From: a virus
DNA length: 39,815 nucleotides
Strand: one strand, 5' to 3'
Virus record (IMG/VR): IMGVR_UViG_3300047560_000253
Location: 1-39,815 of that record
The position numbers were made by a program, and so were the translations under genes. The notes beneath the pieces are model-generated. The model was not told the DNA's origin and did not search any database. It saw only the letters and a program-made list of their open reading frames with translations. This document shows positions 34,403-39,644 of this stretch, piece by piece (within the stretch, counting starts at the first letter, position 1; the number at the start of each line of letters is the position of its first letter).

Positions 34403-34419
<17 letters not shown>
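34012..34419 (+). CDS. nrdI: NrdI flavodoxin-like protein
   Basis: 135 aa, normal for NrdI. The FMN phosphate loop is seen in [13 protein letters not shown] (residues 5-17), the later [15 protein letters not shown] and the flavin-contact [14 protein letters not shown] are typical. NrdI supplies oxidant to form the Mn-tyrosyl radical in NrdF. TTAGGAGAAA precedes the ATG. It overlaps nrdE by 17 nt and starts the nrdI-nrdE-nrdF run. Confidence 0.94.
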
Positions 34420-37488
<3,069 letters not shown>

Positions 37489-37504: not shown

Positions 37505-37534
37505 GGGCTACTTCGGTAGCCCTTTCTTTTTTTT
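37505..37534 (+). terminator. Terminator with C(TTCG)G loop after nrdF
   Basis: GGGCTAC (37505-37511) and GTAGCCC (37516-37522) form a perfect 7-bp stem closed by the C-TTCG-G tetraloop, followed by TTTCTTTTTTTT. It closes the packaging/RNR unit. Confidence 0.93.
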
Positions 37535-37541
37535 ATACTAG

Positions 37542-37550
37542 TGGTATAAT
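37542..37550 (+). promoter_or_regulatory. Extended -10 promoter of the envelope cassette
   Basis: TGG-TATAAT lies directly behind the terminator. Start is expected at about 37557, the first base of an inverted repeat. A second TATACT at 37534-37539 overlaps the terminator tail. No clear -35. Confidence 0.68.
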
Positions 37551-37556
37551 AGTTTT

Positions 37557-37575
37557 GTTAGTGATCCGCACTAAC
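37557..37575 (+). repeat. Perfect inverted repeat at the transcription start (5' hairpin or operator)
   Basis: GTTAGTG (37557-37563), ATCCG, CACTAAC (37569-37575). It begins at the predicted first base of the transcript, so the RNA would carry a 7-bp hairpin at its 5' end, followed at once by the AGGAGA ribosome site. It could protect the mRNA from 5' decay or be an operator for a dimeric repressor. Confidence 0.6.
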
Positions 37576-37590
37576 TATAGGAGACAGGAA

Positions 37591-39171
37591 ATTAGACGAT
37601 TAGCACACTCAATAATAGTTGCAGCAATAGTCTTGCTTATGGTATTTTGGGGAGACCCTGCACATGCACAAACAAGGGCAGAGTATAACCAGATAGTAGC
37701 AGAAGCACAGGCTAAGGTTTCTGCTGCTCAGAATGCCCTACAACAGGCAGAGCAAGCACATCTAGAGGCGGTACAAAGAGGTCAGTCTCTACAAGAGGAA
37801 ATAGCAATTGCACAAGAAGAACTTGCACAAGCACAAACAGATTATGAACAAGCCCTAATTCCAGATCCAACGTGGATCAGACCAACAAAAGAAATACAGG
37901 TTTCAGAGCAGGTTTCGCACACTATTCAAGTGCCACACACAGAGACAATAAGAGAGGTCACGCTAGTACCCAGAGAGGTAACTACGCTGATTCCTGGTGG
38001 ACTTATAGCAAAATCCTACAATATGCAAGGATACAATAATGCACCACCTTTACCTGGAGAAAACAGATTAGTATCTACACTTAACGTTCCTAATATCAAT
38101 TATGATTGGGGTGGTGGACAGATTCTAAATTCAGGATTATACGAAGATGTCATTGTTAACTTTAGTGGAAATATACAAATACCAAGTACAGGAACATACT
38201 ACTTTTACGCACCAGGAGACGATGGGATTAAGTTAATTATCGATGGCAATACTATCATTAATGACTGGTATGACAAAGGCGGAGGTGGCTCAACAACATC
38301 CCTTTACTTGACAGAGGGCAGCCACACGATAACGCTATGGTTCTATGAGAACGGTGGTGGGGCAAACGTCTGGCTATACTGGGCAAAGCCAGGGTATGGT
38401 TGGGAGATTGTCCCATCATCACAATTCGGAACACAGACAGTAACAGAAACAGTATATGATGAAGTAGTTACCTACACAGACGTAACCACATACACAGAAG
38501 AAATCATTTATGAAACTGTTTGGCATACAGAGACCGTGCTTGATATGGATGCGATTCAGCCAGAGATGCAAAACCCAGAACTATTCGTAATCGTAAATGA
38601 AAAACAAACTAATCTAGATACTTTGATAGAACAACAGTCAAACAATTCACTAACAATACAGTCAACCTCAGACGATATCGAAGTAAAAAAACAGGAATTG
38701 CTTACAGCACAAAATGATTTAAACAGCATACCAGAATATGTAGAGCCAACACCAGAGCCTGAGCCAACACCAGAGCCAGTTGTAGAACCAGTACCAGTTG
38801 TAGAGCCAGTGGTAGAAGAAAAGACAGAGGCAGAGGTGCAACTAGAGGAACGATCAGTCCAAAACGATACAGGAGTTCTTCCATACACAATGGCAGATGT
38901 GACTACAGAATTACAGGCAGAAGAAGTTATAAACGCTCTGACAGACCCTACAGCCCTTGCTGGGGCTATTTCTGAGGGTATAGCAGAGACAGCAGCATTC
39001 GTAGGAGAGCTACTTACAGAGCCAGGAAAGGCAGTAGCAGAAGTATTTAAAAACGTGTCTCAGGCAGGTCTGGATATGACAGACGATCAGCGTGAGAAAG
39101 CACAAGAAGTCATCGTGCCTGTGGTCATCGTATCACAAATTGCAAGCATGATGGTAGGGAGAATAAGGTGA
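37591..39171 (+). CDS. Secreted PA14-domain protein with C-terminal membrane anchor
   Basis: 526 aa if started at ATT 37591, which has AGGAGA 6 nt upstream and gives a textbook signal peptide (MRRLAHS, a 14-residue hydrophobic core, DPAHA then Q); an in-frame TTG at 37555 or GTG at 37561 would add 12 or 10 residues inside the 5' hairpin. Then: Ala/Gln/Glu-rich coiled coil (about 27-85); Thr/Val-rich strands flanking a PA14-type beta barrel (about 133-277, with the calcium-site-like GDDGIKLIIDG); a second coiled coil; a TPEPEP-type proline spacer (about 390-410); and a hydrophobic end (VIVPVVIVSQIASMMVG then RIR) like a membrane anchor. PA14 domains often bind carbohydrate. The protein should sit on the outer face of the host membrane. 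Role unknown; not a recognisable endolysin. Confidence 0.72.
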   Translation: MRRLAHSIIVAAIVLLMVFWGDPAHAQTRAEYNQIVAEAQAKVSAAQNALQQAEQAHLEAVQRGQSLQEEIAIAQEELAQAQTDYEQALIPDPTWIRPTKEIQVSEQVSHTIQVPHTETIREVTLVPREVTTLIPGGLIAKSYNMQGYNNAPPLPGENRLVSTLNVPNINYDWGGGQILNSGLYEDVIVNFSGNIQIPSTGTYYFYAPGDDGIKLIIDGNTIINDWYDKGGGGSTTSLYLTEGSHTITLWFYENGGGANVWLYWAKPGYGWEIVPSSQFGTQTVTETVYDEVVTYTDVTTYTEEIIYETVWHTETVLDMDAIQPEMQNPELFVIVNEKQTNLDTLIEQQSNNSLTIQSTSDDIEVKKQELLTAQNDLNSIPEYVEPTPEPEPTPEPVVEPVPVVEPVVEEKTEAEVQLEERSVQNDTGVLPYTMADVTTELQAEEVINALTDPTALAGAISEGIAETAAFVGELLTEPGKAVAEVFKNVSQAGLDMTDDQREKAQEVIVPVVIVSQIASMMVGRIR

Positions 39172-39371
39172 AAATAATTAAATCAATATTCAGGTGGATT
39201 GCAGATGTTTTCAAAGAAAGCATTAACCAGATATTCACCCTACTGGGGTTCTTCATTGCATGGCTAACTCTGACAGGGTCTGCTAGAGATATTGTGGGTA
39301 TAGCAATTATTTGGTCAACTGTAATCTGGCTGATCACAATTAATCTAAGAAAAGATAAGGAGGACAAATAA
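39168..39371 (+). CDS. Small two-helix membrane protein, holin candidate
   Basis: 67 aa from a GTG start overlapping the previous stop (GTGA). Two hydrophobic helices are evident: IFTLLGFFIAWLTLTGS (about 22-38) and IVGIAIIWSTVIWLITI (about 42-58). The N-terminus is basic-amphipathic (KIIKSIFRWIADVFK) and the C-terminus is charged (RKDKEDK), the usual topology of class II holins or accessory lysis proteins. Its place before another small hydrophobic protein supports a lysis-related role, but no endolysin gene is within view. Confidence 0.6.
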   Translation: MKIIKSIFRWIADVFKESINQIFTLLGFFIAWLTLTGSARDIVGIAIIWSTVIWLITINLRKDKEDK

Positions 39372-39607
39372 TGAACTACGCAAAAATCGCAAAGCGTATG
39401 CTTGCACTATTCATCGTATCAGCATTGACAACTATTGGTGCTGGTGCTATCATTGGTATTGACACAGTACAGACTGCTATTCTAGCAGGTGTAATGGGTA
39501 TTGCTAATGTAGTCGAAGATCTTGCTCGTGGCTATCTGAATGACGGAGAGCTATCTGACGAAGAAATCGATGCAGCATTCGTTGACAACACTCCAGAAGA
39601 AGACTAA
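39371..39607 (+). CDS. Small membrane protein, holin-like
   Basis: 78 aa, ATG overlapping the previous TAA and with an AAGGAGG-type site just upstream. It has a basic start (NYAKIAKRM), then hydrophobic helices LALFIVSALTTIGAGAIIG and VQTAILAGVMGIANVV, and a very acidic end (LSDEEIDAAFVDNTPEED). Proteins of this form (two helices, acidic tail) are frequent next to lysis genes of actinophages and are usually called holins. Function is inferred from topology and context. Confidence 0.62.
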   Translation: MNYAKIAKRMLALFIVSALTTIGAGAIIGIDTVQTAILAGVMGIANVVEDLARGYLNDGELSDEEIDAAFVDNTPEED

Positions 39608-39615
39608 AAACCTTC

Positions 39616-39644
39616 TTGACAAGACCCTTTCTAGGCTGTATAAT
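39616..39644 (+). promoter_or_regulatory. Consensus promoter of the last gene
   Basis: TTGACA (39616-39621), 17-nt spacer, TATAAT (39639-39644). Both boxes are perfect, among the best in the window. Start expected near 39651. The -10 lies in the loop of an inverted repeat. Confidence 0.85.

Follow-up and report, generated by a model that had tools for sequence, protein, structure and literature searches.

Single genes with conserved AUU or AUA start codons are already known. The E. coli genes infC and pcnB, which are translationally limited, start with AUU; UUG is an ordinary secondary start codon in bacteria, and 5'-terminal stem-loops of the ompA type stabilise bacterial mRNAs. In S. aureus, AUU and AUA starts gave about 10% of the AUG reporter output in one medium, an attenuation described as modulated by IF3, and cvfC1 (AUU) as well as ccpN and infC (both AUA) have conserved starts with extended Shine–Dalgarno (SD) motifs (PMC13009471, excerpts). 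The phage gene described here, gene 1 of its operon, resembles E. coli infC and pcnB in a conserved AUU behind an SD sequence, which we interpret as a brake on output, but those genes are cellular and use a single codon type, whereas gene 1 opens a phage operon and uses five interchangeable weak codons. With S. aureus cvfC1 it shares a conserved weak start, an SD sequence and the first position in an operon. The output of the S. aureus genes was measured, whereas the phage gene is known from sequence comparison, uses UUG, CUG and AUC as well and, unlike cvfC1, ccpN and infC, has no extended SD motif in the window (compared with the excerpts of PMC13009471). About 10% of AUG output, although measured in another organism, may be taken as the expected effect size for ATT.

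The window, a 39.8-kb IMG/VR virus record analysed over all of its 39,815 nt, is most likely an actinobacteriophage, because its terminase shares about 58% identity with Streptomyces phage terminases and its NrdA is phage-like. The features from the ribonucleotide reductase genes to gene 3 are all on the + strand. Upstream of gene 1 lie the large subunit of ribonucleotide reductase (34403..36520; tblastn 69–72% to the closest NrdA records from phages across almost the full length) and probably the small subunit (36499..37488), delimited from the ORF list and a start scan, which found the best SD match at ATG 36532, and assigned to its family by position and sequence. A predicted intrinsic terminator of the upstream transcript (37505..37522; 7-bp stem, 4-nt loop, T run) is followed by a TATAAT box (37545-37550) with TGG directly before it, which we read by eye as an extended -10 promoter element TGG-TATAAT (37542..37550). 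From the position of this box the +1 of the gene 1 transcript is predicted near 37557, and a TATAAT-like box is found upstream of the start in 87 of 88 cluster representatives of the relatives. Then come a 5'-terminal hairpin (37557..37575; 19 nt, 7 bp, 5-nt loop), the SD sequence AGGAGA (37579..37584; duplex with the anti-SD -7.3 kcal/mol) and the start codon ATT (37591..37593) of gene 1 (37591..39171), which is predicted from Pfam, an AlphaFold model, Foldseek and the alignment to encode a surface-display protein. Gene 2 (39168..39371), the conserved next gene in relatives, encodes a 67-aa membrane protein, and its GTG start overlaps the gene 1 stop. Gene 3 (39371..39607) has an ATG start and encodes a 78-aa membrane protein that is weakly holin-like by PHROG matches. 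Just 3' of gene 3 there is a perfect consensus sigma-70 promoter (TTGACA-17-TATAAT, 39616-39644).

The initial annotation had claimed that gene 1 lacks a nearby ATG and starts at ATT 37591 behind AGGAGA, and direct reading confirmed this. Between AGGAGA and ATT there are six bases, the ATT is in frame with the ORF up to 39171 and is the sole codon of this ORF at proper SD spacing, and no ATG occurs from the last in-frame stop to the middle of the hydrophobic core. Reading of the translation also supports the signal peptide proposed to follow ATT (37591..37668, up to AHA with QT behind it). It had further been noted that the alternative TTG and GTG codons lie before or within a perfect inverted repeat and have no ribosome site, which holds: TTG 37555 spans the predicted +1 and GTG 37561 is inside the hairpin stem, so that neither leaves room for such a site on its 5' side. 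In the window each of the two codons is in frame and leads into the open frame of the gene, and a true start at one of them, or a frameshift from another frame, could be considered on that ground. However, in the relatives L002, L004 and L005 an in-frame stop in the hairpin region cuts the upstream TTG and GTG off from the gene, and these codons are therefore not alternatives common to the relatives. An in-frame stop stands immediately 5' of ATT in L042, L053, L083 and L130, as does an in-frame TAA in L045, L049, L053, L057 and L066. Across all frames, an ATG within 12 nt of the start was found in only two of the 88 representatives, one of them L055. By the stops of the relatives and the absent ribosome site, upstream initiation and frameshifting were ruled out, and we consider it almost certain that the gene does not start elsewhere.

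Next, we compared the start codon in relatives gathered by IMG/VR scans; all cluster counts given here are counts among the matches listed. Identity to the window protein ranged from 25 to 79% in 16 aligned members. The first set, at least 284 called loci, was grouped at 90% over -60..+60 into 88 clusters, which also merges contigs fetched repeatedly by different queries. Among these matches the SD-positioned codon was TTG in 53 clusters, ATT in 17, ATA in 13, ATC in four and CTG in one; neither ATG nor GTG was observed at this position in any of the 88. A wider automated pass, which included proteins with other heads, called 372 of at least 395 loci with a frame and yielded 116 clusters among the matches listed (TTG 59, ATT 25, ATA 25, ATC 5, CTG 2), again with ATG and GTG at zero. 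The clusters are not independent, as the sequences are related. Judged from these sequences, the non-AUG start trait is much wider than the single gene of the window. The exclusion of ATG and GTG does not extend beyond gene 1: in the same operons as the 88 clusters, gene 2 starts with ATG in 74 and with GTG in four of the 78 cases found, and in the wider set with ATG in 91, GTG in five and TTG in five of 101 (its start being taken as the outermost ATG, GTG or TTG). The idea that the weak start is under selection is supported by this contrast between the missing ATG and GTG of gene 1 and the predominant ATG of its neighbour. For control we applied a similar scorer to other + strand ORFs of at least 100 aa in the 88 representatives, and it picked ATG in 182 of 271. 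The best-scoring codon was ATT, ATA, ATC or CTG in 69 of the 271; for all but 15 of those 69, the same stretch also contains an ATG that has some SD, and the 15 others mostly appear to be internal.

Relatives with ATG at another position had been named as a finding that would speak against ATT. None has ATG at the SD-positioned codon; an in-frame ATG does occur upstream in five of the 88 clusters (L006 at -24, L007 at -36, L055 at -6, L192 at -30 and L208 at -15), and only that of L055 shows SD pairing (-3.4 kcal/mol vs -7.4 kcal/mol for the L055 ATT). L055, which may start at this in-frame ATG 6 nt upstream although its SD is weakly placed, is the one seriously doubtful cluster. On the downstream side, the first canonical codon in several representatives (e.g. 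L042, L083 and L130) lies at least 65 codons into the protein. An SD sequence is present throughout, with mean energies of -9.4 kcal/mol for ATT/ATA/ATC (n = 34), -7.8 for TTG/CTG (n = 54) and -11.8 for gene 2 (n = 78); it is stronger with the weaker codon class, yet below that of gene 2, in statistics that ignore the relatedness of the sequences.

Miscalls of the SD scorer were set by hand before the 88-cluster count (L018 CTG, L008 ATT, L028 TTG), in the first clustering (L011 and L025, both TTG) and in the wider pass (L001 ATT, L152 ATC), and codon assignment is less certain in the L008-type clade (L303-L311). Excluded from the 88-cluster count were L080, which is the window itself, L046 and L054, whose frames are broken or incomplete, and loci in which a contig end cut the frame, the frame fell short of 250 aa or the start was less than 90 bases from the end of the locus. 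Uncalled in the wider pass were 13 loci at contig ends, one short locus, three without a signal peptide and six without a candidate; in these six (the window, L006, L007, L386, L387 and L390) the hydrophobicity filter caught an untranslated part, and the first three are ATT in the 88-cluster count. In L046 and L344, which belong to one contig, the surface protein loses its frame within the signal peptide, through either a sequencing error or decay of the copy. Scans of bacterial genome contigs found no relatives. Among named phages we found partial PA14 matches only, no match for L053 or gene 2, and a distant relative of gene 3 in DSL-LC01.

In order to follow the codon through the family we used a tree of the 88 proteins, each trimmed of its first 30 residues, a quick build that gave long-branch warnings. 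This tree requires at least 21 start-codon changes, none of which reached ATG or GTG; at least 16 of them crossed from one class, TTG/CTG or ATT/ATA/ATC, to the other, and the tree rows with ATT/ATA/ATC starts alone require eight. Leaders fell into 14 types (edit distance 15 in 50), none of which has ATG at the SD-positioned codon. The sister proteins L130 and L145 have unlike leaders, start codons and signal peptides; leader and signal peptide appear to be exchanged as a unit by recombination, so that part of the 21 changes would be module swaps. The weak codons could also be an inherited accident under relaxed selection, which would fit the third base of the ATT/ATA/ATC class, since its base frequencies approximate those at fourfold sites; with such a composition, the lack of G at this base within the class is only weakly unlikely (P = 0.034). 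However, ATG is one substitution away from every start codon found in the family and is generally favoured, prokaryotic AUG starts being kept by purifying selection (PMC5622118, excerpts), yet it is absent from 14 leader types and through at least 21 changes, which makes an accident very unlikely. Compared with the excerpts of PMC5622118, the maintenance of AUG is reversed in gene 1, but the tendency of weak starts to gain stronger SD sequences, also described there, recurs between its two weak classes. Because AUG and GUG are excluded although ATG is a single step away, the family offers a natural experiment on how selection sets and keeps initiation strength.

The 5' hairpin named in the initial annotation is real and, as the relatives indicate, acts at the RNA level. 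In the window the two arms of the inverted repeat, GTTAGTG (37557-37563) and CACTAAC (37569-37575), pair without mismatch around a 5-nt loop. The 36-nt leader forms this hairpin and no other structure (-7.6 kcal/mol, z -2.53, 4 of 200 shuffles as good), but with 74 nt of context z is only -0.56. Among 87 leaders, 58 have a perfect stem of at least 5 bp 3' of the -10 box and 40 one of at least 6 bp, and stems were better than shuffles at p < 0.05 in 42. Being perfect in the window and located at the predicted +1, the repeat might instead be a DNA operator for a dimeric regulator. Against this, the 58 stems contain 20 different loop-proximal arms, with all four Watson–Crick pairs at each of the five inner positions, and among the 14 longer stems with a single mismatch this is G-U in 12, A-A in one, A-G in one and A-C in none. 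Mismatches that are G-U and never A-C point to RNA rather than a DNA palindrome, and we regard an operator as highly improbable. By compensatory change, the structure is conserved as an RNA hairpin, with its sequence changed in relatives, at what is predicted to be the mRNA 5' end.

A dependence of start choice on the hairpin was not supported. Several clades with short leaders (20–32 nt from -10 box to start), among them L224, L250, L294, L064, L266, L114 and L027, have no stem and keep the weak, non-AUG start, so that the two are distinct traits. In the window fold the ribosome site is single-stranded, AGGAGA and ATT both being unpaired, which does not support a role of the hairpin as a lid over this site in the window; in a thermodynamic model of the 87 leaders, SD and start were each about half unpaired, which speaks neither for nor against such a role. 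Most likely the hairpin protects the mRNA 5' end rather than gating the start. It resembles the ompA-type stem-loops in its place at the predicted 5' end, in structure being kept over sequence and in the free ribosome site of the window, but unlike them it is missing from the short-leader phage clades, and its stabilising role is putative.

From its N-terminus the gene 1 protein consists of the signal peptide, a coiled coil, a beta stalk, a PA14 head, a second beta stalk, a second coiled coil and a P/E-rich linker, and the C-terminal part holds a conserved DMTDDQRE followed by a hydrophobic segment in the alignment. The PA14 domain (38032..38415) was matched by PF07691 at residues 160–287 of ORF P0001, which starts at 37555 (5.3e-10, 39.7 bits vs a curated cut-off of 24). 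The AlphaFold model (mean pLDDT 72.8, mostly <55 in the C-terminal part) shows coiled coil, long beta stalk, PA14 head, beta stalk and coiled coil, and a Foldseek search of the PDB returned PA14 carbohydrate-binding domains and similar heads among the best matches. With a PA14 fold tipping a long surface protein, gene 1 resembles the adhesins MpAFP (6x8a) and RTX adhesin (6m8m), but differs from them in being phage-encoded within a lysis-type operon and in combining a signal peptide with a C-terminal hydrophobic segment, and its sugar binding is putative. By means of these two segments we infer display on the membrane or the cell surface. The head is PA14 in the first-set members scanned, a SUEL galactose/rhamnose lectin in L311:1792-3570 (PF02140, 37.7 bits) and a domain without a Pfam match in L349:2191-3813 and L360:2200-3678, which suggests a modular phage surface-display protein whose head is swapped while the signal peptide and the C-terminal segment stay alike. 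Stalk length differs among close relatives, and in L005:3001-4941 the beta stalk flanking the PA14 head is lengthened by repeats compared with window 37591-39171.

Slow initiation could serve export itself, sparse ribosomes allowing Sec to take up the signal peptide without jamming. The trait is indeed tied to a signal-peptide gene whose codons 2–3 are mostly K/R/T/N, and the signal peptide seems to move along with the leader. However, the distant PA14-matching phage proteins of DSL-LC01 and HTVC008M, which also have hydrophobic N-termini, start with ATG, and we consider a benefit for export an unlikely reason for the weak codons.

The operon looks like a lysis cassette. The gene 3 product matches phrog_443 (holin) weakly, with E 0.008, and phrog_26427, labelled nuclease, with E 1e-22; we think this label probably incorrect for a hydrophobic protein of 78 aa that also matches a holin weakly. 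CHAP endolysins are encoded downstream in L114 and L008, and a CHAP-like motif occurs downstream in 44 of the 70 loci with 2.5 kb of sequence; the window itself ends soon after gene 3. In most loci gene 2 starts at or near the gene 1 stop, and because of this adjoining arrangement translational coupling could make gene 2 follow the low rate of gene 1, not exceed it.

Taking ATT 37591 as the real start, we consider it probable that selection keeps gene 1 on weak codons and that the codon sets the ratio of gene 1 to the membrane genes. The absence of standard starts suggests a deliberately low output of gene 1, in an operon whose other genes have normal starts. The terminator-backed extended -10 promoter would yield a strong mRNA with a stable 5' hairpin, which would protect its 5' end, and an open SD site. 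At ATT the ordinary initiator tRNA would pair with one mismatch, few ribosomes would start gene 1, and the output of the surface PA14 protein would be low. Genes 2 and 3, with AUG or GUG starts and stronger SD sites, would be well translated from the same mRNA, so that the start codon would fix how much of the throttled gene 1 product is made relative to those of the membrane genes that follow in this lysis-type operon. Setting a ratio would be the most economical mechanism for the observed anatomy, codon exclusion and RNA hairpin, with low output, surface location and a role in lysis as presumptive elements. A phage tRNA with a special anticodon was also considered, and rejected, as we found no tRNA genes in the window.

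The weak codon might be a regulator and not just a brake, a near-cognate start responding to IF3 or the ribosome state with a rise at some stage of infection. Feedback in the sense of infC is inapplicable, as gene 1 encodes no initiation factor. What speaks for regulation is that the strong promoter and the ribosome site are retained, although weakening either would lower output, and that AUU and AUA starts are described as modulated by IF3 (PMC13009471, excerpts); yet about half of the clusters use UUG, the ordinary secondary start, and we rate regulation as rather unlikely. It is equally a long shot that start-codon fidelity forms a control input of this actinobacterial phage lineage, the modular lectin being shown only at lowered initiation stringency; if so, surface display could be timed, e.g. 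late in infection, with the lysis genes downstream. The ratio-setting reading remains the one we favour.

In the open-licence literature searched we found no phage family in which AUG and GUG are avoided over five interchangeable weak codons and many kinds of leader, and nothing on gene 1 in work on non-AUG phage or lysis starts, PA14 phage proteins and freshwater actinophages; the excerpts of PMC10202952, which reports isolates for 'Ca. Nanopelagicales', and of PMC6802176 make no mention of it. The best start codons are absent across a large, fast-evolving phage family. For annotation this means that gene callers restricted to ATG, GTG and TTG will misplace or truncate the ATT, ATA, ATC and CTG members and may lose the signal peptide. 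Two other phage genes (L187:885-1418 and L130:6294-6791), with no second homologue among the first-set loci, apparently also start with ATT behind a good SD sequence.
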